A DNA stretch of 64,000 bases. It comes from Closterium sp. NIES-65. Lineage: Eukaryota > Streptophyta > Zygnematophyceae > Desmidiales > Closteriaceae. Numbering within the stretch: the first letter of the stretch is position 1; each line of letters opens with the position of its first letter. This document shows positions 11,987 to 55,179 of the stretch, one piece after another. The stretch covers positions 1,178,001-1,242,000 of the forward strand of contig CANXME010002317.1 in NCBI GenBank assembly GCA_948144175.1, written 5' to 3'. A program made the position numbers and the translations under genes. The notes under the pieces are model-generated. The model did no database searches, had not been told where the DNA came from, and saw nothing but the letters and a program-made list of their open reading frames with translations.

Positions 11987-13971
11987 TATAACGAAAAATC
12001 CATGCGAAGAACAATGAGGGACGAGTTAGGTAGCCCGAGTCCACCAAACGCACAAACATCACTACCTAGTTCGAGACAACAAGAACCTAGGGGAAGCAGC
12101 AGATGGTCTAGTATGAAGGGGGCACATGAAGTACCGTCCGGGTATATAATGGGCCACCAGAAGGCACTAGGCCAGCGAGGGACAAGGAGCGTTAGCCTAG
12201 CGAGCGAGCGTCGTGCATGTGCGATAACCGCCGGGATCAATGATGGTGGCGGGAAGGCGTACGCATTCTCCGCATGCCAACTGAAGGAAAAGGCATCTTG
12301 CGTGACTGCACGGGGGTGGAAGACGAGCGTGCAAAAGCGGGGAAGCTGGTGGTTGGTGGATGTCGCGAACAGGTCGATTGTGTGGGGTCCCCATCGTCGA
12401 TCGACAAGGCGAAACCAAGGAGAACGAAGCGAGTAGTCATCGTAGTGGATGACCTTGGACAGATCGTCAGCCTCCGTATTGAGCTCGCGAGGAATCCATT
12501 GAACCGTCAAACGGATGCGGTAGCTGACGTAGAGCTGGATGATCGCACGACAGACAAGGGTAATCTCCAGACGTCGGGAACCTCCCTTCCGCATGATGTA
12601 GTAGGCAGCTTGGCTATCGCTGCGCAGTAGGACATGTTGGTCGCGTATGCCCGGGGCAAAGGAGGTGAGTGCCCAAAGAATGCCGCTGATTTCACGGAGT
12701 GTGCTAGAGCTAGCGGACAATGAGTGGGGCATGGGAGCAGAGAGCGGTTGTAACTTAGTTTTGAGATCAGAAAGTATTGCTCCCCAAGAAATGTCACTCG
12801 CGTCGACGTATAGAACCGCTTCGTATGTGTGTGGGTTATGAAATCGGGCGCCGTTGAACTCGTCGAACCGCGCCATCCAGAACTGGAGCTCGTCGACTGA
12901 GCTAGCGGAAAGGAGGACTCGGTGACCCCACGACGGACAATCTGCTATCTGTGTAAGCAAATTATGAGAGAATGCGCGGGCCACCGTGCCGAGCGCGAGC
13001 GACATGGATGCCAGCATGCCGATGATGCGCGCGAGGCGGCGAACTGGGATGAGACGCTTGTTAGTGCCCTCCAAGCAAGTGAGGCGCATCTCCTCAAGAA
13101 GGCGAGTGCGTCGTTCCGGGTCGACCGAGAAAGTCAGGTCCCTGGTGTCCAGGAGTAAGCCGAGAAACTTGAGGCGCTGCACTGGCTCGAGCAGGGATTT
13201 TTTCGAGTTCAAAAGGAATCCAGCGGATCGAAGGTCTTCGAGAATGACGCTTTGAGAACGCAGCGCGCTGGTATGGCTCGCAATAATAAAGAGGATATCG
13301 TCGACGTAAGGAACAACTCGAATGCCCTGGCTTCGCCACCGTTTGGCAAGCTGCTTGATCAGTTGAGTGAATACGAAAGGTGCTGTCGCGAGTCCAAAGG
13401 GGAGCGAGCAAAACTGATATTCCACACCGTTGAAAGAGAATCCAAGAAAATGCCAGTAGCGAGGGTGAATATCGACATGATGGTATCCGGATTTGAGGTC
13501 AATTGTGAATAACCAATCACTCTGTTGGACGAGATCGGGAATGCGGTTCAATCCTTCGTAGCGAAATTTGGACGTGCGCAAGAAACTGTTCACGTGCCTC
13601 AAGTCAAGGATGAGCCGCTTCTTGGTCGGTTGTACGACTACGTTCAGCGGACTGGAATAGGTATTCTTGGCTCGGGCTGGGAGAACACGAGCCCCGCCAC
13701 TGGCTACGAGCTCGGCAATTGCCTCTGTGGTGAAGTCGCTATACTGCGTCGCACCCGGGTGATTAGGTGCATGGCAAGATGCGGGCTCGGTGCTTGCCCA
13801 TGGCAACTGATAACCGCGCGAGATGACAGACAGTATGAAACTGCTGTCACACCATGTGGACCACCACTTAACGCATTCCCGTAACCGACCGCGCATGTGA
13901 GCGTGTATTGGATGTGGAAGCACGAGGCGCCTTGGAGTGCCTGGAGGGTGGGTGGCAACAATTAAATGCAA
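11986..13971 (-). CDS. DIRS-1 reverse transcriptase-RNase H
   Basis: 661-residue intact frame. RT motifs run in order: RLILDLRHVN (about 119-128), IDLKSGYHHVDI (157-168), QFCSLPFGLATAPFVF (186-201) and catalytic YVDD (222-225). RNase H follows with D390 (LYVDASDISWGA), E427 (TLREISG) and D452 (RSDSQAA). The C-terminal part (DLFATSTNHQLPRF... LLVPRWPSAFWWP) is the tail seen after RNase H in DIRS-type RTs. No methyltransferase domain is seen. Start taken at ATG 13971. Upstream sequence carries a 25-bp A run and is degraded, so the original gag-RT boundary is uncertain. The order RT-RH then YR is typical of the order DIRS. Confidence 0.9.
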   Translation of the reverse strand: MHLIVATHPPGTPRRLVLPHPIHAHMRGRLRECVKWWSTWCDSSFILSVISRGYQLPWASTEPASCHAPNHPGATQYSDFTTEAIAELVASGGARVLPARAKNTYSSPLNVVVQPTKKRLILDLRHVNSFLRTSKFRYEGLNRIPDLVQQSDWLFTIDLKSGYHHVDIHPRYWHFLGFSFNGVEYQFCSLPFGLATAPFVFTQLIKQLAKRWRSQGIRVVPYVDDILFIIASHTSALRSQSVILEDLRSAGFLLNSKKSLLEPVQRLKFLGLLLDTRDLTFSVDPERRTRLLEEMRLTCLEGTNKRLIPVRRLARIIGMLASMSLALGTVARAFSHNLLTQIADCPSWGHRVLLSASSVDELQFWMARFDEFNGARFHNPHTYEAVLYVDASDISWGAILSDLKTKLQPLSAPMPHSLSASSSTLREISGILWALTSFAPGIRDQHVLLRSDSQAAYYIMRKGGSRRLEITLVCRAIIQLYVSYRIRLTVQWIPRELNTEADDLSKVIHYDDYSLRSPWFRLVDRRWGPHTIDLFATSTNHQLPRFCTLVFHPRAVTQDAFSFSWHAENAYAFPPPSLIPAVIAHARRSLARLTLLVPRWPSAFWWPIIYPDGTSCAPFILDHLLLPLGSCCLELGSDVCAFGGLGLPNSSLIVLRMDFSL

Positions 13972-13990
13972 ATGGGTTAAGGTCTTCTTC

Positions 13991-14015
13991 TTTTTTTTTT
14001 TTTTTTTTTTTTTTT
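13991..14015 (-). repeat. 25-bp homopolymer (A on the minus strand)
   Basis: A T25 run on the plus strand between the decayed end of DIRS-1 gag and the RT start. It could be a slippage-expanded tract or the tail of a short retroposed fragment (about 14016-14170) that is not recognisable gag. Confidence 0.6.
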
Positions 14016-14575: not shown

Positions 14576-14706
14576 TGTGAAGCAAGGAAAACAGGAATGA
14601 AATAACTAAGTCAGGGTTGGGTACAAATACAACCCTAGAAAGCTGTACCCCATATGTGCTACCCCACTATAGCCTACAAACATGCATCAACTATGATAAT
14701 CTGACA
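14576..14706 (-). repeat. 3' LTR of Cop-C
   Basis: 131 bp, minus strand TGTCAG...TTCACA, identical to 21825-21955. Preceded on the minus strand by the polypurine tract ATGGGGGTG. Confidence 0.95.
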
Positions 14707-14917
14707 CACCCCCATAGGCAAAGTGGGGGAGAACAAGGGGTCACAAGACCAGTCAAGCAAAGCAAAGCAAAGCAAGCTCAGGGTGGATCACAAAGTCACC
14801 ACACAGTCCGAGCACAAGAGTAGGGCCAGAGGCCAGTTCACATGCAGGAGTACAGACATATATATAAAACTAGACAAACAAGAGCAGGTATATATATATG
14901 TCACAGTACAAGTGAAG

Positions 14918-17900
14918 TCAAGAGGAGAGCAAGTGAGGCAAGACAGGTACAAGACCCAGCTGGGTGCAAAAGCGCTGATGGTCACAAGGCGCGAGTGCCT
15001 TGGTGAACACATCAGCAGTGTTGGCCTCAGAGGCCACGTACGCAAGTCGCAACTGACCACGCTGCTGCAGCTCACGAGCAAGGAAGTAGCGGAGAGCAAT
15101 GTGCTTCGTTCTGTGCTCCAAGCGCTGCTCTCGACACAAGGCCAGCATGGCCTTGTTGTCTACGTACAGCACTGGAGGAGAACGAGGCGGCTCTCCAAGG
15201 TCAGTCAGCAGGTAGGTGAGCCAGCGAAGCTCCTGTGCAGCCATGGCCCCGGCGTAGATCTCAGCCTCACAACTGGAGCCGAGAACCGAAGACGAGCGAG
15301 TAGACCGCCACGAGACAGAGCCGGAACCAAGGCTGAAGGTGTAACCCTGTGACGACCGCTGCGTAGCCTGGTCGTCAGCCCAAGAAGCGTCCGCGTGGCC
15401 GGTAAGGACCACTGGACTCCGCCCTCCAAGCACTAGCCCCATGCCCGACGTACTGCACAGGTAACGCAATACCCTCTTCGCTGCAGCCATGTGCTCCGGT
15501 CTGTGTCTCCTAGGAGCAACATAGCGTGCAAGAATGCTCAGAGGGTATGCAAGGTCAGGTCGAGTGCAGGTCATCAGGTACATGAGGCAGCCAACAAGCT
15601 CTGCATACGGACCACTCGACTCTACGGACTCATCCGAAGGCAGAGCTGAGAGTGAGTGGCGAGTAGGCAGAGGAGTGGCCTGAGGCGAGGAGTACGTAAA
15701 GCCGAAGCGCTGAAGGACCTGCTGCACCATGTGTGACTGAGTCAAGGTAATGGTGCGGCGTGCTCTGTCCCGAGTGATCTGCAAGCCAAGGTAGCTGCGC
15801 AGTTCACCCAGGTCTGTACACGTGTGTCTCTTCAGCAGCTCGGACTTCACGTAGGCGAGTCCAGCAGTGTCCGCTGTGGCAAAGACCAAGTCGTCGACGT
15901 ACACGAGGATGTAGAACGGCGGCAGGGAAGTGTCGGTGCGAAGAAACAGCGACGGGTCAACAGTAGAAGGAGCAAACCCAAGAGCCGCAAGCGTAGTCCT
16001 CAGTGTGTCGTGCCACTCACGCGGTGCCTGGCGGAGACCGTAGACTGGCCGTCGGAGGCTCCACTGGGTGCCAGGAGGGAAAGTCCCAGTGAAGCCAGGT
16101 GGACGGCGAAGCCAGATCTCCTCGTGCAGGCTACCCTGCAAGAACGCAGTGCTGAAGTCGAGAGAGTGAAGCTCGTAGTCGCGCTGAGCGGCTATGTGCA
16201 GCAGCACCCGAAGAGTAGTCATCTTCGGGGTGGGAGAGAAGGTCTGAAAGTAGTCAACTCCCTGCTGCTGACTGAAGCCACGAGCAACGTACCGTGCCTT
16301 GAAGACAGGTGGAGAGCCCGGCGGCCGCTTCACCCTGAAGATCCACATGCCACTGACGATGTTCGCCCCAGGAGGGGGAACCGCGTCAACGTAGGTGCCT
16401 GTGGACTTCCAGGAAGCCATCTCTGCATCCATAGCTGCCTGCCACTGAGAGGAGTAGGGACCCTCTACGGCCTCCGCGTAAGAACGCGGAGTCGGGATGT
16501 CTAGTGCATCCGGGTCTCCCTCAGGGGCAAGCAGTACAGACGCGAGATGAGGTGAAGCAGCCGCTAGACGCTGTAACTCCTCCTGCCTGTCCTCTAGGAC
16601 GTCCGTGCCAAGAGCACACTCACCCCCGACGGACGGAGGACAGACAGACGCAGACTCAGCAACAAGACTAGCAGCGTAGTCGAGACGACAGCGAGCAGCA
16701 AAGTCGACAAGCTCAGCGACTAGAGCAGACGCAGCAGTGGACTCAAAAGAGGGGTCAGTGACGACAGTAGCAAGCAGACGCGTGACAGTAGGACTGGCAG
16801 CACGAAGAGAGTCCGACTCAGGGTCGGCAAGCGCAGGAAGAGAGGACTCAGGAGGAGAAGGCAAAGGGGCACGCAGAGGAGTAGTGGACGGACGCAAAGA
16901 CATCCGGTGCGTGCCACGGACAGGAGGAGGACGCTGACGCGAACTGCGACCACTAGCGCGAGCAGCACGAACAGGCGACGCGGGACGAGACGCAGGCTCA
17001 CGACGCTCAGCAAGACCTCCAGTAGGACCAGTGTAAGGAGAGGGAGCAGGCAGTGGAGAGGAAGGCTTCAGCAGGGACTGCGACTGGACAGGCGGTGGAC
17101 CCTCTACTGGAGGAGAAAGACCAAGAACCTGCTGCAGGAGCGGAACGAAGTACGGCCGAGGCCGCGCGGCAGCTCCAGACGCAGCAGGGACAGCACCAGC
17201 ACCCTCACCGACAGCACCAGTGCCACCCACACCTCCAGCGGCAGGACCAACAGCAGTAGGCTCAGCACCAACGCCCTCAGCAGCTCCAGCTCCAGGAGGA
17301 CCCGCAGGTCCAGCAGCTCCGGGACCGGCAGCACCCGCACCCTCGACGGTCGAAGAAGCTCCAGCTCCAGCTCCAACAGCACCTCCAGACTCAGCAGCAC
17401 GCCTCCAGCGGCGAGCGAACCACTCGCGCAGCTCCTGTGGAGAGAGGGGCTCCCGGCGAGACGCAGCAGCAGGAGAAACCCCAGGCTCAGCAGCTCCAGA
17501 CGCAGCACCCCCAGGCTCAGCAGCTCCCAGCTCAGCACCCCCAGGCTCAGCAGCTCCCGACCCAGCACCCCCAGACCCAGCACCTCCAGGCACAGCACCC
17601 CCCGGCTCAGCACCCCCAGGCTCCGCACCCTCCGCAGTAGCACCCTCAGGCCCAGCACCCCCAGCAGTAGCACCCCCAGGCTCAGCACCCCCACGCACAG
17701 CACCCCCAGAGTCAGCACCCCCAGGCTCAGCACCAGAGTCACCAGTAACCTCGACCGGGTCAACGGCGTCTACCTGGGACACACCTGAGGGGGCAGGAAC
17801 CTGAGGGGTGAGGGGGTCTACCGGGGGGGGAACCGGCACAAGGAAGTCCGGGGGAGGGGGGAGGGAAGGAGTGCGGTAGGGGAAGAGACGGTAGAAGGGG

Positions 17901-19441
17901 ACTGACTCGTCGAACGTGACGTCCTGGGAGGACAGAACACGACGAGAGGAGGGGTGGTAAAACTGCCACCCTGGGGCGTCAGTGGGGAAGCCAAGGAAGA
18001 CACAGGGAGCAGCACGAGGGGACAGCTTGTCCGCAGACAAGTCGCGGACAAACGCCCGAGATCCCCAGACACGGAACACAGACGCATCGCCAACCTTCCC
18101 CGTCCACAGCAAGGCTGGGGACATCGCAGGCCGAGAGACCCGGGGGTGAAGGTTGAGCTGATGCGCCGCGTACCTCACCGCAAACGGCCACAGAAAATGG
18201 GGGGCAGCCGCATGCATCATGGACGTACGAGCGACATCCATGACCATGCCAATGCGGCGCTCTGCAATCCCATTTTGCTGTGGTGAGTCCGGAAGCGTGA
18301 AGGTCTGGCGGATCCCCCGTGCACGACAGTAGTCCCGCAGAAGGCGAGAAGAGAACTCTCCGCCTCTGTCAGAGTGCAGACGTAGAACAGGAAAGTCCGA
18401 GCCAAAGCTCTTCCTGAGCTGGAGACGAGCCTCGCGGATCCAGTCGATCAGTACCTCAGTGACCGCACCCTTGCTGCGCAAGGGGAGGACTGTGGTGTAA
18501 CGCGAGTAGTCGTCAACCACCAACAGGAAGTAGCGCTCGTAACCCTGCCCACGGACGGGGGCTGGGCCCCACACATCCATGTGAAGCGTCTGCAGGGGAG
18601 CCTCTGTCGGGGGGAAGTGGGAGGAGTGAGGAGTAGCCCGGAGGCGACCCTCGACACAGGGGACACAGGAAGGTCCTGGCCCGGAGGGGAGAGGAGGGAG
18701 AGACTGGGGAAGACCAGAGACAAGGACACGGGAAGCCATGCTCCGAAGACGGGGCAAGGAGGGGTGGCCAAGACGGTGGTGCCACAGGAGAGTCTCGTGA
18801 GACAGGAGGCGACAAGAACAGGGGGCAGACTCAGGACCTGACCGGGACGCAGCAGCAAGCACCTGACCCGACGCAGCCACCTGACCAGACACAGGGACAG
18901 GAGGAGACTCAACGGTCAGGGTGTAGAGACTCGACCCCGGCCGACGCGAGAACGTGGCCAGGTGTCGGCCTGTGCGTGCCTCCGTGCAGTGGGTCACCCG
19001 CTGACTCGCAGGAGTGAACTGGTGAACCCCCACATCCTGCAGGTCCGCTCCACTCACCAAGTTCGTAGAGAACGAGGGAAGGTACAGACCCGACAGGGTG
19101 CCCGAAGGGGCAGCCGGACACGGGAGGACAGTGGAGAAGTGAGACAGGACAGGACCCCCAGAGGGGTCAGCAAGGGAGACCGCAACCGGCCGGCCGAGCG
19201 GCGTAAGGGTAGTGCGGTCTCGAAAGAAGGAGCGAGAAGCTCCGGAGTCAAGTGTGAAAGTGAGGGAGGACGAGGACGACGCAGTACCTGAGAGCGCAGT
19301 CTCACCAGTACCTGAGAGCACAGAAGCACTGGCACCTAGAGCAGCAGCCTCACAAGCACCTAGCGCAGCAGTACCAATGCCCGGGTCGGGCTGGAAACAA
19401 CGGTAACCCTCATTCTCCTCACTATAATCCACAACATACAT
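14918..19441 (-). CDS. Cop-C pol polyprotein
   Basis: 1507 residues from the first Met (19441); the frame is open back to the TAG at 19538, so Met is only a convenient start. Domains in order: protease (TLDSGASRSFF), GAG-pre-integrase and integrase HHCC (LLWHHRLGHPSLPRLRSM... CVPCVEG), integrase core with D (MDVWGP), D (LHSDRGGEF) and E (QNGIAERR), a Gly/Ala/Pro linker of about 200 residues including SPQELREWFARRWRR, RT with catalytic YVDDLVFA, and RNase H (HADASWADD, SCEAEIYAG, YVDNKAML). Intact throughout. It is nearly identical to Cop-E pol, although the LTRs and gag differ. Confidence 0.93.
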   Translation of the reverse strand: MYVVDYSEENEGYRCFQPDPGIGTAALGACEAAALGASASVLSGTGETALSGTASSSSSLTFTLDSGASRSFFRDRTTLTPLGRPVAVSLADPSGGPVLSHFSTVLPCPAAPSGTLSGLYLPSFSTNLVSGADLQDVGVHQFTPASQRVTHCTEARTGRHLATFSRRPGSSLYTLTVESPPVPVSGQVAASGQVLAAASRSGPESAPCSCRLLSHETLLWHHRLGHPSLPRLRSMASRVLVSGLPQSLPPLPSGPGPSCVPCVEGRLRATPHSSHFPPTEAPLQTLHMDVWGPAPVRGQGYERYFLLVVDDYSRYTTVLPLRSKGAVTEVLIDWIREARLQLRKSFGSDFPVLRLHSDRGGEFSSRLLRDYCRARGIRQTFTLPDSPQQNGIAERRIGMVMDVARTSMMHAAAPHFLWPFAVRYAAHQLNLHPRVSRPAMSPALLWTGKVGDASVFRVWGSRAFVRDLSADKLSPRAAPCVFLGFPTDAPGWQFYHPSSRRVLSSQDVTFDESVPFYRLFPYRTPSLPPPPDFLVPVPPPVDPLTPQVPAPSGVSQVDAVDPVEVTGDSGAEPGGADSGGAVRGGAEPGGATAGGAGPEGATAEGAEPGGAEPGGAVPGGAGSGGAGSGAAEPGGAELGAAEPGGAASGAAEPGVSPAAASRREPLSPQELREWFARRWRRAAESGGAVGAGAGASSTVEGAGAAGPGAAGPAGPPGAGAAEGVGAEPTAVGPAAGGVGGTGAVGEGAGAVPAASGAAARPRPYFVPLLQQVLGLSPPVEGPPPVQSQSLLKPSSPLPAPSPYTGPTGGLAERREPASRPASPVRAARASGRSSRQRPPPVRGTHRMSLRPSTTPLRAPLPSPPESSLPALADPESDSLRAASPTVTRLLATVVTDPSFESTAASALVAELVDFAARCRLDYAASLVAESASVCPPSVGGECALGTDVLEDRQEELQRLAAASPHLASVLLAPEGDPDALDIPTPRSYAEAVEGPYSSQWQAAMDAEMASWKSTGTYVDAVPPPGANIVSGMWIFRVKRPPGSPPVFKARYVARGFSQQQGVDYFQTFSPTPKMTTLRVLLHIAAQRDYELHSLDFSTAFLQGSLHEEIWLRRPPGFTGTFPPGTQWSLRRPVYGLRQAPREWHDTLRTTLAALGFAPSTVDPSLFLRTDTSLPPFYILVYVDDLVFATADTAGLAYVKSELLKRHTCTDLGELRSYLGLQITRDRARRTITLTQSHMVQQVLQRFGFTYSSPQATPLPTRHSLSALPSDESVESSGPYAELVGCLMYLMTCTRPDLAYPLSILARYVAPRRHRPEHMAAAKRVLRYLCSTSGMGLVLGGRSPVVLTGHADASWADDQATQRSSQGYTFSLGSGSVSWRSTRSSSVLGSSCEAEIYAGAMAAQELRWLTYLLTDLGEPPRSPPVLYVDNKAMLALCREQRLEHRTKHIALRYFLARELQQRGQLRLAYVASEANTADVFTKALAPCDHQRFCTQLGLVPVLPHLLSS

Positions 19442-19537
19442 AGCAGCAAGGATAGCATCAAAATCAAGATCAAAGATCGCTACACCAGCCCTGAGAAGCT
19501 CATCCCAGCGAGGGATCTCACTAGCCCCAGGGAACTT

Positions 19538-20809
19538 CTAACGCCAAGCGTCCGTCAGGCGGCCAAAGCAGCGCTGGGTGGCGTGGGCACCCCCACACTG
19601 CTCACCCGCGCGGTCGCCGGAACGAAGAACGTAGGTGCAGGGACCAGTACCCCCACCCCTCTGACGCCCAGCGTACCACTCACGAAGCTGCTGAGGCGGA
19701 GGGATGTCCCGCGAGCGCTGCTGCTGCTGCCGCTGCGAGCGCTGGCCACCACCACCGCCGCTACGCTGCTGGGTACCACCTCGACCAGCTCCACCTCCTC
19801 CACCACCACCGCCTCCTCCGCTGCCGCCTCCACCGCCTCCACCTCCGCCGCCTCCACCACCGCCGCTGCCTCCACCACCACCGCTGGCACCACCACCACC
19901 GTCTCCGCCACTGCTGCCACCACCACCACCACTCCCGCCACTAGTCCCGCCGCCACCCCCACTCCCTCCGCCGCCACCGCCGCCACCGCCACCGCTCCCT
20001 CCAGCTCCACCCACGCCCTTGCCCCCCTTGCCCTTGCTGGAGCGACGTCTCCCACTAGGGGCAGACGTCGCGCCGACCGACTCAAGACCAAGCAGGTCGG
20101 CAGCAGCAGCAGAGGCAACAGAGGGCAGCAAGGGGGAAGGAGAGCACCCCTCAAAGATGGGGGTGCGAGGGTCACCACGAGAAGCACCTACAGCGACTAT
20201 GCTCTTCTCCGCTGCGAGGAGGGCCTTCTCGAGGAGGTCGACGGTGAGGGTGGTGGGACAGACTGCGAGAAAGTGGTCCCTGACGACGCGAAGGGAGTCA
20301 GGGAGGCGCGCGACTACGTAGTAGAGAGCGATGTACATGGGGGGGGGGTTCTTAGCGCAGAACTCAGCAGGAAGGGCGGCGCGGTAGCGAGTGTCACTAG
20401 TGCGGAGGTGCGTAATGAGGTCAGCGACAGTGGGAAAGGCAGAGAGGTCAGGAAAGAGGTAGGGAAGCATGAGACGGCTCAGTGCAGCAGTGGCAGGGGA
20501 GGAGTAGCGCGCAACTACAGCGTCGTACAAGGTGTGAGCACTCTTGTACTGACTAAAGTGCGCACGCTCAGAGGTAGGGAGGTGGCGACGCACAGCAAGA
20601 CGTGCAGCAGCATCGCGGGTGGCCCACTTAGAGCGGACAGTGGGATCAGCATCAGCAGCAGGAGCAGGGGAGGCGCCAGAGGTGAGGTCAAAGAGAGAAA
20701 GGTCGTCAGCCCTGTCGCACTGTAAGAACAGCTGCAGGTCGTCTAACCAGACCTCAAAATCAATGGCGCGACCCTCAGCGTCAAAAGCTAGGACACTAGG
20801 GGTAGCCAT
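19538..20809 (-). CDS. Cop-C gag
   Basis: Structural protein of the virus-like particle. Start chosen at ATG 20809 (MATPSVLAFDAEG), which matches the Cop-B gag start; an upstream in-frame ATG at 20833 would add 8 residues. The helical capsid-type region (LMLPYLFPDLSAFPTVADL, then KNPPPMYIALYYVVARLPDSL) occupies about the first 200 residues. A Gly/Ser-rich tract of about 110 residues follows, then QQLREWYAGRQRGGG and the terminal cluster spaced C-x13-C-x3-H-x4-C, instead of a canonical CCHC knuckle. The stop is TAG (CGT TAG AAG); the next codon continues into pol in the same frame. In Cop-B and Cop-E/G the matching codon is sense. Confidence 0.9.
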   Translation of the reverse strand: MATPSVLAFDAEGRAIDFEVWLDDLQLFLQCDRADDLSLFDLTSGASPAPAADADPTVRSKWATRDAAARLAVRRHLPTSERAHFSQYKSAHTLYDAVVARYSSPATAALSRLMLPYLFPDLSAFPTVADLITHLRTSDTRYRAALPAEFCAKNPPPMYIALYYVVARLPDSLRVVRDHFLAVCPTTLTVDLLEKALLAAEKSIVAVGASRGDPRTPIFEGCSPSPLLPSVASAAAADLLGLESVGATSAPSGRRRSSKGKGGKGVGGAGGSGGGGGGGGGGSGGGGGTSGGSGGGGGSSGGDGGGGASGGGGGSGGGGGGGGGGGGGGSGGGGGGGGGGAGRGGTQQRSGGGGGQRSQRQQQQRSRDIPPPQQLREWYAGRQRGGGTGPCTYVLRSGDRAGEQCGGAHATQRCFGRLTDAWR

Positions 20810-20833
20810 GGCAACGTCAGTGACGCAGTGCAA

Positions 20834-21728
20834 GCAGTAGGGAAAGAGCTCGCAGTGTCAGTGGGACTGTGCTCACCAGGCAGGGCAGGTCGTGCAGCTA
20901 TGCAGAAAGGCGGCTCAGCGACCGGGCGGCTCGGGTGCACAGCGGCTCGGCTCCCGGGCGGCTCGGCGGCTGGGCGGCTCGGGCGCAGGGCGGCTCGGCT
21001 CCCGGGCGGCTCGGCGGCAGGGCGGCTCGGGTGCAGGGCGGCTCGGCTCCCGGGCGGCTCGGCAGCAGGGCGGCTCGGGTCCCGGGCGGCTCGGCGTTGG
21101 GCGGCTCGGCTCCCGGGCGGTTCGGCTGCTGGGGCGGCTCGGCCGGGAGATGCAGGGGCGGGGCCGTCAGGTGCAGCGGCGGGTCGACCGGTGCAGTGGC
21201 GGGCCGGCAGGTGCAGCGGCGGGCCGGCAGGTGCAGCGGCGGGCCGTAGGGTGCAGCGGCGGGCCGGCAGGTGCAGCGGCGGGGCCGTCAGGTGAAGCGG
21301 CGGGCCGCTGGGTGCAGCGGCGGGCCGCCAGGTGCAGCGGCGGGCCGGCAGGAGCAGCGGCGGGCCGGCAGGAGCAGCGGCGGGGCCGTCAGGTGAGGCG
21401 GCGGGCCGGCAGGAGCAGCGGCGGGCCGTAGGGTGCAGCGGCGGGGCCGTCAGAGGCGGTGGGCCGCTGGGTGCAGCGGCGGGCCGGCAGGTGCAGCGGC
21501 GGGCCGGCAGGAGCAGCGGCGGGCCGGCAGGAGCAGCGGCGGGGCCGTCAGGTGAGGCGGCGGGCCGGCAGGAGCAGCGGCGGGCCGTAGGGTGCAGCGG
21601 CGGGGCCGTCAGAGGCGGCGGCGGGGCCGCGGCAGTAGAGGCGGGGCCGCGTCAGGGGAGGCGGCGGGGCCGCGTCAGGGGAGGCGGCGGGGCCGCGTCA
21701 AGCAGGCGGCGGGGCCGCGAGGGAAAAG
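20834..21728 (-). repeat. Cop-C leader tandem repeats
   Basis: Two blocks of GC-rich tandem DNA between gag and the PBS-proximal hairpins: units around gggcggctcggctcccgg at about 20920-21130, and roughly 20-bp units (gcagcggcgggccggcaggt) at about 21160-21700. By position this is untranslated leader RNA. The Gly/Arg/Ala frames across it are compositional. Confidence 0.8.
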
Positions 21729-21812
21729 GCGACCCGAGGGGTCGCTAAAAAAAAGGCGCGCCTCGGGGCGCGCTTCGGTGGGCCCTAAAAAAAACGGTCC
21801 TAAGGCAGGACC
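21729..21812 (-). promoter_or_regulatory. Three-hairpin leader module next to the PBS (Cop-C)
   Basis: In minus-strand order after the PBS: H1 GGTCC/GGACC (21812-21796), then U8; H2, a 7-bp stem GCGCGCC/GGCGCGC with a 4-base loop (21773-21756), then U8; H3, a 7-bp stem GCGACCC/GGGTCGC with a 3-base loop (21745-21729). The same order and stems recur in Cop-E and Cop-G with different loops and run lengths, and H1 plus its T-run recurs in Cop-B. Position suggests a role in packaging, dimerisation or reverse-transcription start; function is inferred. Confidence 0.65.
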
Positions 21813-21824
21813 CGCTCTATACCA
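21811..21824 (-). other. Primer-binding site of Cop-C
   Basis: Minus strand TGGTATAGAGCGGG directly after the 5' LTR end. It resembles the TGGTATCAGAGC start of many plant copia PBSs (initiator-tRNA type, often an internal tRNA fragment); the exact tRNA is not identified. Confidence 0.65.
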
Positions 21825-21955
21825 TGTGAAGCAAGGAAAACAGGAATGAAATAACTAAGTCAGGGTTGGGTACAAATACAACCCTAGAAAGCTGTACCCC
21901 ATATGTGCTACCCCACTATAGCCTACAAACATGCATCAACTATGATAATCTGACA
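21825..21955 (-). repeat. 5' LTR of Cop-C
   Basis: 131 bp identical to the 3' LTR, followed by the second AAGCG duplication at 21956-21960. Confidence 0.95.
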
Positions 21956-25093: not shown

Positions 25094-27250
25094 AAACCAG
25101 TTCTTACGGCAAGGAAATAGGATTTACTAGGGAACTGTGTGAAGAAATAGAGGAAGAAACAACACCCAAATGTTGAAACAGTGACATGTTGCGCACAAAC
25201 CTATCCTTGCACAGTTTCAGGCCAGCAAATGCACAAACAAGCGCCACGTGCTGCGTAGTTGTGCGACCGAGGTCAAACCAGTTCCTATGGCTAGGGAATA
25301 GGATGTAACAGGGAAATGTGTGAAGAATAGAGGTAAAAACCACACTCAGACTTTGAAACAGTGACATGTTGCGCACAGGCCTATCCCTGCACAGCTTAAG
25401 GCCAGCAAATGCACAAACAAGCGCCACGTGCTGCGTGGCTGTGCGAACGAGGTCAAACCAGTTCCTATGGCTAGGGAATAGGATTTAATAGGGAAATGTG
25501 TGAAGAAATAGAGGTAAAAACAACACCCAGACGTTGAAACAGTGACATGTTGCGCACAGGCCTATCCCTGCACAGTTTCAGGCCAACAAATGCACAAACA
25601 AGCGCCACGTGCTGCGTGGTTGTGCAAACGAGGTCAAACCAGTTCCTATGGCTAGGGAATAGGATGTATTAGAGAAATGTGTGAAGAAATAGAGGTAACA
25701 ACAACACCCAGATGTTGAATCAGGGACATGTTGCGCACGGGCCTATCCCTGCACAGTTTCAGGCCAACAAATGCACAAACAAGCGCCACGTGCTGCGTGG
25801 TTGTGCGCACGAGGTCAAACCAGTTCCTATGGCTAGGGAATAGGATTTACTAGAGAAATTTGTGAAGAAATAGAGGTAAAAACAATACCAGACGTTGAAA
25901 CAGTGACATGTTGCGCACAGGCCTATCCCTGCACAGTTTCAGGCCAACAAATGCACAAACAAGCGCCACGTGCTGCTCGTTGTGCGAACGAGGTCAAACC
26001 AGTTCCTATGGCTAGGGAATAGGATGTACTAGAGAAATGTGTGATGAGGTAACAACAACATCCAGATGTTGAATCAGGGACATGTTGCGCACAGGCCTAT
26101 CCCTGCACTGTTTCAGGCCAGCAAATGCACAAACAAGCGCCACGTGCTGCTTAGTTGTGCGACCGAGGTCAAACCAGTTCATATGGCTAGGGAATAGGAT
26201 GTACTAGAGAAATTTGTGAAGAAATAGAGGTAACAATAACACCCAGATGTTGAATCAGGGACATGTTGCGCACAGCCCTATCCGTGCACAGTTTCAGGCC
26301 AGCAAATGCACAAACAAGCGCCACGTGCTGCGTAGTTGTGCGAACGAGGTCAAACCAGTTCATATGGCTAGGGAATCGGATGTACTAAGAAAATTTGTGA
26401 AGAAATAGAGGCAAGAACCACATCCAGACATTGAAACAGTGACATGTTGCATACAAGCCTATTCCTGCGCAGTTTCACCATGCAACGAACAAACATGCGC
26501 CACGTGCTGCGCAATTGTGCGAACGAGGGAAAACCAGTTCCTATGGCTAGGGAATATGATATATGAGGGAACCGTGTGAATAAATAGTGGTATAAAAGGC
26601 ATCCAGACGTTGGCGAGCTGACATGTTGCGTACAGGCCTATCCTTGCACAGTTTCACCATGGAACGCACAAACATGTGCCACGTGCCGCGTAGTTTTGCG
26701 AACGAGGTCAAAACAAATCCTATGACTAGGGAATAGGATGTAGTAGGGAATTGTGTGAAGAAATAGTGGTAAAAAAGGCATCAAGACGTTGGCGAGCTGA
26801 CGTGTTACGTAAAGGCCTATCCTTGCACAGTTTCACGATGGAACGCACAAACATGCGCCATGTGCCGCGTAGTTGTGCGAACGAATTCAAACAAGTTCCT
26901 ATGGCTAGGGAATAGGATGTAGTAGGAAATTGTGCGAAGAAATAGTGGTAAAAAAGGCATAAAGACGTTGGCGAGCTGACATGTTTCGCACAGGCCTATC
27001 CTTGCACAGATTCACCATGGAACGCACAAACATGCGCCACGTGCTGCGCAGTTGTGCGAACGAGGTCAAACCAGTTCCTATGGCTAGGGAATAGGATATA
27101 TTATGGAACTGTGTGAATAAATAGTGGTATAAAAGGCATCTAAACGTTGGCGAGCTGTCATGTTGCGTACATGCCTATCCTTCCACAGATTCACCATGGA
27201 ACGTACATACATGCGCCACGTGCTACGAAGTTGTGCGAATGAGCTCAAAC
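25094..27250. repeat. ~180-bp satellite array
   Basis: The anchor gaggtcaaaccagttcctat (or variants) recurs at 25269, 25449, 25630, 25811, 25990, 26165, 26346, 26525, 26704, 26883, 27062 and 27241, giving a period of 175-181 bp over about 12 monomers. Each monomer also has gacatgttgcgcacaggcc and gcgccacgtgctgcg. Monomers from 26400 onward diverge more from those before. No coding potential is seen. Fragments on both sides (23405-23541, 27631-27950) show a formerly longer array. Confidence 0.92.
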
Positions 27251-27625
27251 TGTCAGTAGATCTGCATTGTGGATGCCTGATTGATCCTGGAGAGGGTTAC
27301 AGGCGCGTTCGCCTGGGGGGTTATGGGCGCACTGACCCGCTACTGAAACAAGCCCTTTTATCCCAATGGTCTAGTGGTTGGGATTCCGACATGGTATCAA
27401 AGCGGTCTCGGGTTCGATTCCCGGTGTATGCACATGTAGGCCGTTGCCGCTGTGCTTAGTCCTGGGCCTCCCATTGTGGGGGGGTGTCAGTAGATCTGCA
27501 CTGTGGATGCCCGATTGATCCTGGAGAGGGTTACAGGCGCGTTCACCTGGGGGGTTATGGGCGCACTGACCCGCTACTGAAACAAGTCATTTTATCCCAA
27601 TGGTCTAGTGGTTGGGATTCTGACA
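27251..27625 (+). mobile_element. TRIM-1, miniature LTR element with tRNA-like Pol III boxes
   Basis: Two 141-bp terminal repeats (27251-27391, 27485-27625), TGTCAG...CTGACA, with a perfect 5-bp duplication CAAAC (27246-27250, 27626-27630). After the first LTR comes a PBS-like TGGTATCAAAGCGG; a purine tract (ttgtggggggg) precedes the second. The 93-bp interior has no coding capacity. The LTR end plus PBS region forms a 74-bp tRNA-like segment listed separately. It lies in a satellite monomer. Confidence 0.88.
27361..27434 (+). promoter_or_regulatory. tRNA-like segment with A and B boxes across the LTR/PBS junction
   Basis: A box TGGTCTAGTGG at 27367-27377 lies in the LTR end; B box GGTTCGATTCC at 27411-27421 lies in the interior, 33 bp further on. 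The T-arm-like CGGG/CCCG stem is present, but the outer ends do not pair as an acceptor stem, so it is not a functional tRNA gene. TTTT runs sit before the A box in LTR1 (27356-27359) and at the equivalent place in LTR2 (27590-27593), where a Pol III transcript could end. Confidence 0.6.
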
Positions 27626-27630
27626 CAAAC

Positions 27631-33775: not shown

Positions 33776-34194
33776 TGTTGGGCTGAAACGCCCTAGGATC
33801 TTAGTAGAGTTAAAGTCTGATAGCGGAAGCGTTTGAATAAAGTCCTTGAACCACCTTGCGCTAGTATGTGAGGGCAAAGTAAGTTGATTTCAACAAGCAA
33901 ATACAAAGGTTTATATAAGAGTACAAGGAATACGAATAGATATAATTAAACTGTTTTACTGTTGCGGTTCGATACAGTGCGACTCGGGCAACTGCTCAAT
34001 TTCGAGTCAGTTGTATGTCCTTGCTGTCGCGCTGTATTTGTCAAGTCAAAGGTCGCTGACCTTTGACCTTCGCGTAACCTCCAGCGGTTACTTTCACCTC
34101 CGATAGTTGACTCGTGGTGCTTCGATTTGAGCTGCTTCGCTTGTGTCTTGAGTTTCGACACGACAGAGGTGCTTAAGACTTTTTGTTCCCAACA
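33776..34194 (-). repeat. 3' LTR of Cop-D
   Basis: 419 bp, TGTTGGG...CCCAACA. It lacks the 14 bp gtaggatgatgtaa present in the 5' LTR. Confidence 0.93.
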
Positions 34195-36083
34195 CTCCCC
34201 TTCGCTTCTGGAGTGTCGCTGAGGGTGACGTGGCTTTGTCCAGTCAGCAGCATGCAGTACTCGAACTTCTGTTTTCCGAGTTTCTTGGTCAAGTAGTCGG
34301 CTGCCATCTCGGACGTGGGACAGTATGATAATTCGAGTTTTCCTTTCTCGATCTCGTCTTTCACGAAGAAATATCGCAGAGCGATATGCTTCGTTCTGTT
34401 CGCGAATCCGCTCTTGTTGGCAATGCGAATCGCAGATTGGTTGTCGCAGAACAAAGTGAAGTTGGGTAACTCGGCTAACTTCGCTTCTTCCAGCAGCTCG
34501 CGAAGATAGAGTCCTTCCTTGGTGGCTGAGCAGAGGGCGATATATTCTGCTTCAGCTGAAGAGAGAGTGATTAGTTCCTGCTTGCTCGATTGCCAGGAGA
34601 TAGGTCCGATAGGTTCGAGACGGTAGATGTAGCCAGTGCGGGAGCGCCTGTTGTCTGAATCGCCGGCGTGATCGGCGTGGACGTAGCCGATTAGTTTCGT
34701 CGGTGTAGTTTTATTCTTGTAGTATGTCAGGCCGATCGTCGAGGTGCTCACGAAGTAGTGTAGTGCGCGGTCGAGCTCCGTCAGGTGTTATGTTTTGGGT
34801 CTCTTGAGGTAGGTGGCGAGTTGACTTGCGGAGTAGGATAGATCTGGGCGGCAGGTGACGGCTGCAAAGAGAAGGCAGCCCAGCTTTCGCTGATAGTCGC
34901 GTATTCCGGCGGTTTTGAGTAGAGTGGAACCACCCTTGTCGTTCCCTGCCGTGTAGCGGTATGGCGTGGAGATAGTGGTAGGTGTGGGCGAGAAGCGCTT
35001 GGCGATAGTGTCGGCATATTTTTCGGCGCTGAGGTAGATCGCGTTCTCTTCTTCGCGGATGTTGAGTCCGAGATACTGAGTGACGGTAGAGGAGACCGTG
35101 AGTGTGAGGTCCTTCTTCAGCTCCCCTTCGAACCAGGTTGTGATGTCGTCAGTGGACCCAATGTAGAGTAGGTCGTCGACGTAGACGATCAGCAGGATGT
35201 AGTCGGCGTTTTTGGTGAGTCGATACATTCCTTGGTCGTGAGGCAGTTGGCGGAATCCGATGCGAGTGAGGCGAGTGTGTAGGTGTTGTTGCCACAGCCG
35301 CGGAGCTTGTTTGATTCCGTAGAGCGATTTCAGGAGTTGGCAAACCTGATTAGATTTCCCGTGGGTACCGTGTGGAAGCTCGACGAAGATTTCGGCGTCG
35401 ACGGGTGCGTAGAGGAACGCGTTGGCGACATCGATTTGTCGCAGTTTCTTCTTCTTCATGGCGGCGATCGTGAGAAGAATTCGGAGTGAGGTATGTCGGC
35501 TGACCGGGGCGAATGTCTCGGTGAAGTCCCGTCCGTGCTCCTGGTCGAATCCACGCACGACCCAGCGTGCTTTAAATTTCTCAATTGTGCCGTCTGCTTT
35601 CGTTTTGATGCGGAAGACCCATTTCCCGGTGAGGATGGTCTTGTTCCTTGCCACGCTTGCGGGAACGACTTTCCAGGTGTTGCGTTCCTCCAGCGCCTTT
35701 AGTTCTCTGTCCATGGCTTCACGCCATTTCTCCCTATGTTCCCCCCCCAGAGCCTGCTGAACCGTCGAAGGCTCTTTAGGAAGAGCACTGCCGTGGACTG
35801 TGGTGACGAGGCCGAGAATCTGCAGTCCAGTCTGTGAGTAGCGGAGGAGTGTTGGGTCCTCGGGATAAGCTGCTTCGTCTCCCGCTTCTGGGTCGGGTAT
35901 GAAATTCGGCCCTATCCGTTCTGCTTCGTTTGTGTTGACTCTCGCAGGTGTTACGTAACCGTTGTCGGCGAAGTGGTAGAAGACTTCGGCGTTGACACTG
36001 TCGCGAGGATTTTCTTCGTCCATGGGGACGTTGACGGAGCAGAACGGTAGAGGTCCGACTTCTTCCGATGCGTTGTCGACGTT
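34173..36083 (-). pseudogene. Cop-D RT-RNase H
   Basis: Continues in frame from the stop at 36084-36086. RT carries KWVFRIKTKADG, FKARWVVRGFDQ, the IDVANAFLYAP block and catalytic YVDDLLYIG. A TAA at 34788-34790 (after LKRPKT) splits RT from RNase H, which keeps HADHAGDSDNRR, SSAEAEYIAL, FCDNQSAIRIA and TKHIALRYFFVKDE. The last codons enter the 3' LTR. With this stop and the one at 36084 it cannot make the full polyprotein as read. Confidence 0.9.
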
Positions 36084-39000
36084 CTACTCTTCCCAGTCTG
36101 CTTCGTCCGTTGCTGAGGCGAAGGCTCGGTCACCACGAAAGCCACCTGTGGGGTCCTGATTTTCGTGCAAGTTGGCGAGGTACGTCTGAAGCGTGAGTCG
36201 TTCGTAGAAGATCACGTCACGTGCTGCTACTGTTTCCTTGGAGTGGACGTCGAAAATTTTCCACGCGTTGTAATTCTTTTCGATGCCGAGGTGTAGTCCC
36301 CACTGTGCACGTTGTGAAAATCTTCCCGCTCGTGCTTCTGGGGGTCGATACTGTACCATGCACCCGAAAACTCGAAACATTTTTGTGCTGCCCTGCTTCC
36401 CTGTCCACAGCAGGTGCGGTGATGCGTTGTTCGGAAGTGAGGACGACGACAACAAGTTGTGCAGCATGACAGCATGGTCCATTGCTGCAGGCCACTGGTG
36501 GTTGGGTAGCCGCATGCCACGTAGCAGTTTGCGCATGCTGTTCTGTAGGGTCCTGTTCATTCTTTCTGCGACACCTTGTTGCTGATGGGCGTAGGGAAGG
36601 GAGAGAAGCTGCTTGATTCCTCGTCCCGCCAAGTACTGCTTGAATCGCTGAGAGGTGTATTCTCCTCCTCGGTCTGACTGGAAGCTTTTCAGCAGTGTTC
36701 CCGACTCTCTCTTTGCTACTGGTAGCCAAGCGGCGAACGCTGCGAGTGCCATGTCGCGGCTGGGTAGGTTTAGGTGCCAGACGTATCGAGTGGCGGCGTC
36801 GATGAAGGTTATCGTGTAGTTGTAAATAACTTGTCCTGGTTCTCGATTGAAGAGAATATCGGTGTACACCTTCTCAAGTGGTGCGTACGCGGGTGCGCTC
36901 GGGTTGTGGTGAGGAGTAAACAGTCGATGTGGTAAGTCGGCTTCGGGGCAGATGAGGCAAGTTCCTCGTGCTCGTTGAAGTTCTCTGCCGTCGGGTAGTA
37001 GTAATGAATCCTTGTCTAGGACTCCTGCTCTTATTGTATTATTTAACACGGTGTTGCTTGGATGTCCCGTGCGTGCATGCCAGATGTCTTCGGAGGCGCG
37101 ATGTCCGGGTGAGCGTCGATAAACGTCGGAGTTGGAGTAGAAGCTGGCGACGAAGTTTGCGCTTCTGTGGACTTCTCGTTGAGTTGGGTTCAGCTGCTGT
37201 ACGGGTGTTGGTGGTGCTTCGTCGACGAGGACTGGTGTCGTTGGTCCTGCTGCTGCCGATGTTGTCTCTGCTACTACCGACGCTGTCTCTGCTGCTGCCG
37301 ATGTTGTCTCTGCTGCTACCGATGTTGTCTCTGCTGCTGCCAATGTTGTCTCTGCTACTGCCGATGTTGTCTCTGCTGCTGCCGATGTTGTCTCTGCTGC
37401 TGCCGAATGTTGAATTGTTGCTAACGCGCGTGTTTGTTCCGCTTCAGGGATGGTATGCGAATACCAAAAGCCCTCCGGGCTGAAGTCGGGGTCGAGATCC
37501 AGGGGATGTGTCCAGTCGGGGAAGTTCACGATGGCGTCGCTGTCTGCAGTGCCCAGGTCTGGGACGAAGTCGAGGACGAAGACGTTGTTCTTCAGGACCG
37601 CCTTTCCGATGTAGAGACCGCCCTTCCCGTGGTACAACTTGAACTCCTGGGTGGTACTGCCGGCTTCCAAGTGGATGCCTTTCGCCATCAACTGGCTGAC
37701 GCTCAGTAAGTTGTAGCCGAGTCCCTCCGCGATTAACACTTTTGACATGTGCAATATAACATTTGTCTCTCGTGACTGAAGTTGTACTACTCCTTGTCGT
37801 CGTGTGTGCAGGTTCTGGTTGTTGGCGACTGTGATGACGACCTCTCGTTGAAGTCGATGTTCGCGTTGAACGAAGCGTCCTGAGGAGCACATATGTTGTC
37901 CGCAGCAACTGTCCAAGAACCAAGTGTCTTGTCCGGACGGTTCGCTTTGAGCGATGGCAGCGTACGTCGGGTTCGGCTGGAGTGACTCGCGGCGAGGCGT
38001 GCTGTTGTCGAGTTGTTCTTCTGGTGAGTAGTATGGTGGTGACTCGGTTGTGCAAGAGTCTGTTATCTTCACCATGCAGTTGACGATGTTTCTTGCTCCT
38101 TGTGCAGGTTGTCCTGTTGGAGTCGTTGAAGCTTGGACTGAAGTTGTCGGATTTGCTTGCGTTGAGGTGACTTGGGAGCTTGAAGGCCGAAGTTGTCGCT
38201 GTGGTGTTGTCGATTGCTGACGAGACGGGCAGTGCGTACGAGGATGTCCTGAAGTCTTGCAGATGTGGCAGAACGGAGGTACTTGCTTCACTTGTTGCTG
38301 CCGGTTGTTGTTGTTGTTGTAGCGTCGCTGAGTGTGAAATGCGAACTCTGGTACTGACGTTTTCTTCTTGTGTCGTTCTTCTTGCAGGTCCATGTTCTGC
38401 TGCTCGGCATGGATTTTAGTGCAGAGTGGTGCTTCGGAGATTCTCTCGTGTGCTCGTAGTATAGCGCGAGTGGAGCGCCAGTGGGGGCCAAGACCGCCGA
38501 TGACTACCGTGACGAAGGCATCTTCTGAAATCGATCCTCCACATTGAAGAAGCTTGTCGCGCAATTCGCGGCATCGACTGATATATGCCATGCCCTTCTT
38601 GCCTGGTTTCATTTCGATTGTTGTCAGCTGCGCCATTAACCGGCTTTGGCTTACACTGTCTGTTGCTTGATACAGGTTCTTCAGGTGGTTGTACGCGAGC
38701 TCCGCGGAGTTACCGTAACCTCGGTAAGTCCTGATATTCTGCTGTTGGGTCGGGGTGATGTTCCTCAATAGTATTGTGTACGCCATCATCGATTGATAGG
38801 TGTACTGCTGCTTCTCATACTGCGTGCCGTTTGTTGGATATGGCAGGGACCCGTCGAAGAAGCCAAGGATCTGTGCTCCTTCCATCATCAGCTCGAATTC
38901 GAACGACCAGGTGAAGAAATCCTTTCCGTCGAAAGATTTTGTCGTTTGAAGTTTTAGAACATGCGCGAATTGCGACTGAATTTTTAGTGCGTCAAGTACT

Positions 39001-39383
39001 CTTTCTTGTCCCGGTGCAGGTTGTGGTTGCGGCATGAAGCTGACGGATCCGCGCTGGGGCTCGTACGGAGCGAAGGTAGGTTGTTGTTGTTGTTGATTCC
39101 CGCGTGCGTAGGATGAGCCATCGAGACTCATGGGCGTCACGTTGTTGTTGCTGTTGCTGTTGTTTGACTGCGCAGGTACTCCTTGCTGATGCTGCTCGTA
39201 GAAGGACATGAAGGAGAAAAACTTCTCCATCATACTTGGATCAAAACCCGCGTGTGTTTCCGTAGACCCAGCTGCTGGTCTCGTTGTTGTCCCTTCCTCT
39301 GTCTATAGGCCAGAGGTAGGAGGTGGAGTAGGGGTAGTGCCGGGAGAGCCGTTGGAGGAGCTCCTCTCCTTTCTAGCAGACAT
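36084..39383 (-). pseudogene. Cop-D gag-protease-integrase
   Basis: The frame from ATG 39383 (MSARKERSSSNG) has a stop at 39303-39305, then is open for 1049 residues from 39233. Gag carries a gag-polypeptide-of-copia domain (about 85-260 of the long frame) and a canonical knuckle CHICKTSGHPRTHC. The protease region is WFLDSCCGQHMC, with Cys where Gly of DSG/DTG is usual. An Ala/Glu/Thr repeat (21-bp units, 37244-37415) precedes the integrase, which shows HARTGHPS, CLICPEADL, YTDILFN, FQSDRGGEYTS and QGVAERMNRT. The frame ends with TAG at 36084-36086. Confidence 0.88.
37244..37415 (-). repeat. 21-bp coding repeat in Cop-D (ETTSAAA units)
   Basis: About eight in-frame 21-bp units encoding ETTSAAA-type heptads between protease and integrase. 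Frame-preserving and probably a flexible linker. Confidence 0.85.
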
Positions 39384-39446
39384 GTCTTCTTGATGTATTG
39401 AGTGTTGAGAAGGAGTAACTTTTAATTCTAACCTGCTCTCATACCA

Positions 39447-39879
39447 TGTTGGGCTGAAACGCCCTAGGATCTTAGTAGAGTTAAAGTCTGAGTAGGATGA
39501 TGTAATAGCGGAAGCGTTTGAATAAAGTCCTTGAACCACCTTGCGCTAGTATGTGAGGGCAAAGTAAGTTGATTAAAACAAGCAAATACAAAGGCTTATA
39601 TAAGAGTACAAGGAATACGAATAGATATAATTAAACTGTTTTACTGTTGCAGTTCGATAAAGTGCGACTCGGGCAACTGTTCTATGTCGAGTCAGTTGTA
39701 TGTCCTTCCTGTCGCGCTGTATTTGTCAAGTCAAAGGTCGCTGACCTTTGACCTTCGCGTAACCTCCAGCGGTTACTTTAACCTCCGATAGTTGACTCGT
39801 GGTGATTCGATTTGAGCTGCTTCGCTTGTGTCTTGAGTTTCGACACGACAGAGGCGCTTAAGACTTTTTGTTCCCAACA
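39447..39879 (-). repeat. 5' LTR of Cop-D
   Basis: 433 bp, followed by AGATT at 39880-39884. A TATA-like tatataagag lies about 150 bp from the left end on the plus strand. Confidence 0.93.
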
Positions 39880-43923: not shown

Positions 43924-44055
43924 TGTGAGAATAAGCGAACAGGAATGAATGAACTAGCAGTGAAATGAGTACAAGTAGAAAACCCTAGAATTGTGTACCC
44001 CCTATAGGCTAACCCACTGTAGCCTACACAAGCATAACATATATAATGTTTGACA
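43924..44055 (-). repeat. 3' LTR of Cop-E
   Basis: 132 bp, minus-strand TGTCAAACATTATATATG...TCTCACA; one mismatch to the 5' LTR. Confidence 0.95.
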
Positions 44056-44261
44056 CACCCCCATAGGCAAAGTGGGGGAGAACAAGGGGTCACAAGACCA
44101 GTCAAGCAAAGCAAAGCAAGCTCAGGGTGGATCACAAAGTCACCACACAGTCCGAGCACAAGAGCAGGGCCAGAGGCCAGTTCACATGCAGGAGTACAGA
44201 CATATATATAAAACTAGACAAGCAAGAGCAGGTATATATATATGTCACAGTACAAGTGAAG

Positions 44262-49430: not shown

Positions 49431-49565
49431 CTGGCCGCCACCACGAGTAGAAGCAGCAGGAGTGGTAGTAGGAGTAGCGTTGCCACCCCTAGAGCCCCAA
49501 CCAGCGTATCACTCACGCAGCTGCTGCGGCGTGAGGGACTCACGCCGGCGTCGCTGGGGCTGCAT

Positions 49566-50662: not shown

Positions 50663-50794
50663 TGTGAGAATAAGCGAACAGGAATGAATGAACTAGCAGT
50701 GAAATGAGTACAAGTAGAAAACCCTAGAATTGTGTACCCCCTATAGGCTAATCCACTGTAGCCTACACAAGCATAACATATATAATGTTTGACA
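50663..50794 (-). repeat. 5' LTR of Cop-E
   Basis: 132 bp, followed by the second GAGAG (50795-50799). Confidence 0.95.
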
Positions 50795-53040: not shown

Positions 53041-53054
53041 ATATTCTAGACCCT

Positions 53055-54840: not shown

Positions 54841-55044
54841 TGAAAGTATCCCAACCACTAGACCATTGGGATAAAAGGGCTTGTTAAGTAAAGGGTTAGT
54901 GCGCCCATAACCCCCCAGGCCAGCGGGCCTGCAACCCTTCCATAGGATCAATCGGGGATCAACAGTGGACCTCTGACACCCCTCCGCACTGGGATGCTCG
55001 TGGTGCACACACCGGGATTCGAACCCGAGACCGCTCAGATACCA
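54841..55044 (-). mobile_element. TRIM-2, partial miniature LTR element
   Basis: The 3' LTR (54978-54841, 138 bp) matches the TRIM-1 LTR, including the A box TGGTCTAGTGG. The interior (55044-54979) begins TGGTATCTGAGCGG, carries B box GGTTCGAATCC and a GTGCACCA end, then a purine tract. Its own 5' LTR is missing: the Cop-F 3' LTR sits exactly where it should be. Confidence 0.75.
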
Positions 55045-55179
55045 TGTTAGAATAAGTAGCAAGGGATGAATGAACTATCAAGAGAGTTTGGTACAAGTAC
55101 AAAACCTAAAAAGGTTGTACCCCATGTTGGCTACCCCACTATAGCCTACACATTATACCCTAAAATATATAGTTTGACG
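55045..55179 (-). repeat. 3' LTR of Cop-F
   Basis: 135 bp, plus-strand TGTTAGAATAAG...GTTTGACG, with the usual core gttgtacccc and ctaccccactatagcc. The terminal CA dinucleotide at one end has become CG. Confidence 0.8.

Follow-up and report, generated by a model that had tools for sequence, protein, structure and literature searches.

How a retrotransposon of a few hundred base pairs could fix both ends of its RNA is the question raised by TRIM-1, a short LTR element in the DNA of Closterium sp. NIES-65. The window analysed here is a stretch of 64,000 nt (contig CANXME010002317.1, positions 1,178,001 to 1,242,000), and a sequence-only reading of it had proposed that TRIM-1 carries a tRNA-type RNA polymerase III (Pol III) promoter split across the junction between LTR and primer-binding site (PBS). 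The accessible text of Kojima 2024 (PMC10886601) calls Cassandra the only validated Pol III-driven LTR element, gives its R region as 18 bp, proposes the class name TRIMp3 for Pol III-transcribed TRIMs and describes Helenus, a TRIM whose LTR contains a tRNA-like sequence, from fungi, animals and one lycophyte. Green algae are known to have TRIMs, according to the accessible part of a further paper (PMC4717578). The reading that we favour, with modest confidence and on the strength of sequence comparison, is that the TRIM is probably mobilised by Copia proteins and that its RNA most likely comes from Pol III, acting on a type 2 promoter assembled across the junction of the 5′ LTR and the internal part.

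Anatomy and promoter boxes of TRIM-1

TRIM-1 is a complete element of 375 bp (27251-27625), inserted where a 179-bp tandem array ends, and the empty site is visible in neighbouring units of that array. It has two short LTRs, 95.7% identical to each other, and a total length below 1000 bp, as TRIMs do, and is noncoding as judged from size alone; a PBS and a polypurine tract lie at the ends of the internal part, and target-site duplications (TSDs) flank the whole. Its features are as follows.

25094-27250, 179-bp tandem array of about 12 units
27246..27250, + strand, left TSD CAAAC, 5 bp
27251..27391, + strand, TRIM-1 5′ LTR (LTR1), 141 bp, TGTCAG...CCGACA
27347..27359, + strand, AACAAGCCCTTTT, predicted Pol III start region (CAA) plus T4 terminator, together the predicted R
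27356-27359, + strand, TTTT run of LTR1
27367..27377, + strand, A box TGGTCTAGTGG within the LTR
27392-27484, TRIM-1 internal part, 93 bp
27392..27403, + strand, PBS of TRIM-1, TGGTATCAAAGC
27411..27421, + strand, B box GGTTCGATTCC in the internal part
27476..27484, + strand, G-rich polypurine tract just upstream of LTR2, as read from the sequence
27485..27625, + strand, TRIM-1 3′ LTR (LTR2), 141 bp
27590..27593, + strand, TTTT run of LTR2, predicted terminator of a transcript of ~247 nt
27601-27611, + strand, second A box, in LTR2, with no B box downstream
27626..27630, + strand, right TSD CAAAC

A second LTR block, CCTGGGGGGTTATGGGCGCACT (27312-27333, LTR positions 62-83), is identical in the window's three TRIM LTRs.

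The A box of the LTR and the B box of the internal part lie 33 bp apart with the PBS between them, and both LTRs contain a TTTT run, as the sequence-only reading had described. By itself the B box is borderline, with two matches in the window, both in TRIMs, against 0.45 expected (5 of 100 shuffles reach two), and the A box by itself is not beyond chance (four matches against 2.16 expected; 18 of 100 shuffles reach four). The pairing of the two exceeds chance: an A and a B box spaced by 20-60 bp occur once in the window, the strict pair was seen in none of 300 dinucleotide shuffles and a looser pair in one of 300. Scans of viral contigs for the boxes gave no match, in a collection where algal nuclear DNA is not expected.

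The junction was also aligned to provisional sequences of 13 tRNA genes and compared with shuffled junctions. It scored best against human tRNA-Glu (65.5 versus 18.5 ± 3.4 for shuffles), in an alignment that spans 58 nt with one 1-nt gap and has its mismatches mostly in the LTR end and the PBS, which occupy the place of the anticodon arm. In a stepped scan of the window, the TRIM-1 junction was the top place for this match, on the sense strand only. ‘Glu’ is a label and not an assignment, because Arabidopsis tRNA-Gly scores 57.5 and Arabidopsis tRNA-Glu only 39.5. In antisense orientation the same 13 tRNAs gave scores of 14 to 22.5, close to the means for shuffled junctions (16.7 to 19); the two values for initiator tRNA-Met were 18.5 and 19.5, with shuffle means of 17.2 and 16.7. 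A functional tRNA gene at the junction was rejected: ARAGORN found no tRNA gene in the TRIM-1 unit and no tRNA in 58 fetched loci, and Rfam gave no tRNA match for the unit, even at E 10. An unusually stable RNA fold was likewise rejected (z −0.16 for 27349-27595 and 0.55 for the 74-nt unit). Rfam 5S models had no match in the window, nor at the TRIM-1 element at E up to 10. A search for a host tRNA-Glu with the provisional human query was empty, a result that says nothing on absence.

The family in the host assembly

Surveyed in the 874-Mb host assembly, the TRIM family looks young, recently active and numerous: among 1746 first-look candidates, the best 40 each match the query at 97% identity or more. 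Exact 5-bp TSDs were seen at 18 of 20 places fetched for reading; among the 52 complete elements compared below, 43 have one. The PBS reads TGGTATCAGAGC in 61 of 69 fetched junctions, TRIM-1 having a private A, and presumably corresponds to the 3′ terminus of plant initiator tRNA-Met. Upstream of the PBS, 30 loci have a full TRIM LTR (22), a Copia-related LTR (3) or a partial or inverted piece (5).

The 69 distinct junctions are PBS-like sites that have one box or both close by, found with tolerant motifs and excluding bare Copia PBS sites; some may be haplotype pairs, and L001-L008 were omitted as duplicates or the window itself. The earlier reading had proposed to check whether the boxes are conserved among copies. 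In this box-bearing set, 61 junctions have both boxes, always with the A box in the LTR and the B box in the internal part, seven have the B box only and one the A box only. The B-only junctions comprise three hybrids (window, L030 and L055), two with an inverted U5 (L049 and L067) and two with point changes in the A box (L024 and L043), and the A-only junction (L027) has a point change in its B box. Among the fetched junctions, the A box is exactly TGGTCTAGTGG in 59 of 62 and the B box GGTTCGANTCC in 64 of 68; the gap between them is 33 bp in 44 of the two-box junctions and 36 bp in 17.

A tRNA-Glu-like genome-wide pattern that combined the tRNA-form A-box region TTAGGAT, absent from TRIM-1, with the B box, exact match required, returned 14 listed matches in 874 Mb, all of them TRIM junctions; the reversed control gave none. 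Each of the 14 has the TRIM PBS or a one-base variant of it between the boxes, and judged with their surroundings all are TRIM copies, with a further LTR subfamily at L079, L083, L088 and L089. The pairs L079/L080 and L090/L092 look like two haplotypes of one site. Being exact, the pattern would overlook any host tRNA-Glu that differs from it.

TRIM-2 and the Copia hybrids

TRIM-2, from a family that differs in its LTR and has a shorter internal part, lies on the other strand of the window, which also holds three Copia elements.

14576-21955, 33776-39879 and 43924-50794, − strand, three Copia elements with LTR pairs
54841-55044, − strand, TRIM-2 (LTR plus internal part)
54841..54978, − strand, TRIM-2 LTR, its only TRIM LTR; A box at 54855-54865
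54979..55044, − strand, TRIM-2 internal part; PBS at 55033-55044, B box at 55015-55025
55045..55178, − strand, Copia-type 3′ LTR fused directly to the TRIM-2 PBS (hybrid), without an A box

TRIM-2 had been said to keep the same boxes as TRIM-1. The letters are present, but the TRIM-2 PBS is preceded by a Copia-type LTR, and therefore no A box stands upstream of the B box; TRIM-2 was rejected as a second intact example of the split promoter. Copia sequence precedes this LTR (55045-55178), which shares 79-81% identity with Copias A and B at their 3′ ends. We also discarded an argument from a constant A box beside a diverging LTR end: four of the last seven nucleotides of the LTR differ in the window's TRIM-2 copy, for which alone the argument is true, but not in its subfamily. 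In Copias A-C of the window a related PBS is present but no B box follows it, and two of the three have short LTRs of 131-132 bp and the PBS TGGTATAGAGC. Elsewhere in the window, reverse transcriptase/RNase H and tyrosine-recombinase ORFs adjoin on the minus strand (10946-14010), as in DIRS-like elements, and two Ty3-type gag ORFs lie on the plus strand (53010-53924 and 59224-60342).

At three loci (window 55045-55178, L030 and L055), the TRIM PBS directly abuts a Copia-related 3′ LTR, with an exact join, and the LTRs are of different subfamilies: the one in L055 resembles Copias A and B at 84-86%, and the one in L030 resembles the Copia-related LTR at 23538 at 83%. The LTRs of two TRIM subfamilies are joined in the same manner at L053. 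L061, on the reverse strand, is a TRIM-2 tandem of three LTRs and two internal parts; it is flanked by a single TSD, ACGCA, and so probably existed before integration. The hybrids are probably heterologous tandems: where TRIM and Copia RNAs shared a particle, reverse transcription would have switched templates at the PBS common to both. Sabot and Schulman (2007), as cited in PMC7215508, reportedly described template switching in LTR elements.

Other rearrangements bear on where the RNA begins. At L049, L050 and L067, which have identical flanks and TSD (CGCAG) and thus represent one event, the TRIM insertion begins with an inverted 47-nt U5 ending at TTAACAAG, perhaps a cDNA fold-back ending at the predicted RNA start. 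L054 is a composite of an inverted TRIM-1, a TRIM-2 and an inverted LTR fragment (TSD CACGA) with a piece that ends about 10 nt further upstream than TTAACAAG, and at L045/L046 a TRIM LTR is cut at position 58 and joined to an element end unlike the window's Copia LTRs. Because L054 and L045/L046 disagree with them, the inverted U5 ends are not proof of the RNA start; the cut at LTR position 58 does not fit a start at position 97 and counts against the transcript model set out below.

Conservation, proposed transcript and alternatives

LTR1 of TRIM-1 and the TRIM-2 LTR share an identical block of 38 nt, AACAAG to GGGAT, which begins 20 bp before the A box and contains CAA. We compared 52 complete elements, 27 and 25 from two subfamilies, whose LTR starts and ends had to match set motifs; copies with identical 25-bp left flanks were dropped. 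Over the whole element, omitting the PBS, internal positions 31-42 and, in each LTR, the last 7 nt, fixed differences affect 1 of 92 promoter columns versus 66 of 245 others (Fisher p 1.3e-9), and shared plus fixed differences stand to singletons as 6:21 in the promoter versus 139:104 elsewhere (p 8e-4), counts that overstate the case because both LTRs, which are mutual copies, are included and the subfamily B alignment is uneven; alignment artefacts in subfamily B, seen when LTR5 is compared with LTR3, also inflate them. An earlier cut gave 1 of 55 versus 48 of 179, and its circular-shift control equalled the observed value in 17 of 234 shifts. When only the 5′ LTR was recounted, in 51 of the 52 elements (L053 dropped), fixed substitutions numbered 0 in 38 promoter columns (97-134) versus 12 in 96 upstream (p 0.019), or 0 versus 16 fixed differences with gaps included (p 0.006); the singleton control, 0:4 versus 28:27, was not significant (p 0.11). 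No fixed change separates the subfamilies in the LTR end (0 of 7 columns) or the PBS (0 of 12) either. Promoter conservation between the two subfamilies is real but modest.

The split tRNA-type promoter of the sequence-only reading draws support from the tRNA-like similarity and spacing, from the 61 of 69 junctions and from the genome-wide pattern, and modest support from conservation; use of Pol III by TRIM-1 seems likely. In the layout we propose, the A box would lie in U5 and the B box shortly beyond the PBS, which would take the place of the tRNA anticodon arm, and TFIIIC would bind both boxes. Plant tRNA genes often start at CAA. For TRIM-1 the transcription start would be near AACAAG (27347), some 20 bp before the A box, a more plausible position than the vicinity of 27361 put forward earlier. 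The first TTTT would be read through because it is located within the first ~13 nt, and transcription would stop at the corresponding TTTT in LTR2 (27593). The product would be an RNA of ~247 nt with a repeat of ~13 nt at both ends, which could serve first-strand transfer; a Met-type tRNA would prime at the PBS, and Copia proteins would carry out the remaining steps, including reverse transcription. No T4 run was counted outside the LTR site in 49 of the 52 complete elements. The full promoter would exist only where a 5′ LTR meets the internal part, and solo LTRs and the 3′ LTR, which have the A box alone, are therefore predicted to be silent.

Several observations count against the Pol III reading: TTTT is a weak terminator and sits in the 5′ leader, the junction has no tRNA fold, and the conserved stretch runs on into the LTR end and PBS, which reverse transcription needs anyway; recombination between the subfamilies near the PBS could, moreover, homogenise that stretch. 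The missing tRNA fold and the unchanged LTR end and PBS, together with the hybrids and tandems, in which recombination at the PBS is seen, and the modest size of the cleaner conservation counts, would also suit an ordinary Pol II-transcribed TRIM whose tRNA-like boxes are a relic and whose uniformity reflects the needs of reverse transcription and recombination between subfamilies. We consider this a less probable explanation, though one to be taken seriously. Against it count an unchanged block that extends 45 nt into the LTR, covering the T run and the A box, and the retention of the B box, at 7 nt beyond the PBS, by 68 of the 69 junctions (sites with at least one box), whereas 32 of 51 columns in the rest of the internal part distinguish the subfamilies, mostly through length; the window's Copias, with their related PBS, have no B box.

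That same position of the post-PBS GGTTCGA segment, 7 nt after the PBS, could instead mark an extended pairing to the T arm of the primer tRNA, a signal of the primer-activation type and not a B box, the more so as T arms are near-palindromic and either strand would resemble one. Such pairing would leave the A box in the LTR unexplained, and the antisense scores near the shuffle means, against 65.5 for sense tRNA-Glu, led us to reject extended antisense pairing to the primer tRNA; we regard this explanation as very improbable. Hardly more credible is descent from a Helenus-type TRIM whose LTR originally contained the A and the B box, with the LTR end later moving upstream and leaving the B box internal. 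The element sizes are similar, and the accessible description of Helenus covers fungi, animals and one lycophyte (PMC10886601), but the B box lies past the PBS in all 61 two-box junctions of the 69 examined. A different origin is possible although we hold it doubtful: the element may descend directly from a tRNA-like Pol III transcript in which mutation had turned the anticodon arm into a Copia PBS, reverse transcription making the 5′ half of the RNA into the LTR ends, so that the PBS itself would divide the promoter.

The comparison with known systems turns on where the promoter lies. Like tRNA-derived SINEs, in which the tRNA fold is often degenerate, the TRIM-1 family has a tRNA-type A/B promoter signal; unlike it, SINEs have no LTRs, PBS or polypurine tract and are mobilised by LINEs. 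Cassandra, in the accessible account, is a TRIM with a Pol III promoter whose start and stop give a short R, but its promoter is of the 5S rRNA type (type 1) and lies inside the LTR, and TRIM-1 has no Rfam 5S match. Ajax, as far as it is described in the accessible text, is a TRIM with a partial small-RNA promoter that is 5S-derived, located in the LTR and found in nemerteans (PMC10886601). Helenus is closest: the same text gives it a tRNA-like sequence with conserved A and B boxes and mostly no functional tRNA expected, a PBS and polypurine tract, 5-bp TSDs in fungi and plants and a Copia partner in fungi, but places the full tRNA-like sequence inside the LTRs, hence twice per element (PMC10886601). 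In the TRIM-1 family, the A-box half is in the LTR and the B box is internal with the PBS between, giving the full unit once per element; none of the 61 two-box junctions of the 69 has both boxes inside the LTR, which sets the family apart from Helenus as described. It thus misses the Helenus-defining location but probably works like Helenus. The suggestion that TRIM-1 is a tRNA-type counterpart of Cassandra by a different route survives in part, since Helenus already fills that role but does so with its tRNA-like sequence inside the LTR. Among freely accessible papers, a search of titles and abstract openings found none on a PBS-split Pol III promoter. The PBS-divided layout differs from the few known TRIMs that carry a whole promoter inside the LTR (Helenus and Cassandra).

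Few LTR elements are driven by Pol III, and a promoter divided by the PBS would offer a simple test of how such elements fix their RNA ends and R region. It predicts that solo LTRs have no promoter activity, and it suggests a route from a small RNA gene to an LTR retrotransposon. Were the direct origin from a tRNA-like transcript true, that route would need no SINE insertion into a pre-existing LTR, and each cycle of reverse transcription would restore one 5′ promoter while leaving the 3′ LTR and solo LTRs silent. As the family looks young and numerous, its transcripts should be easy to look for.
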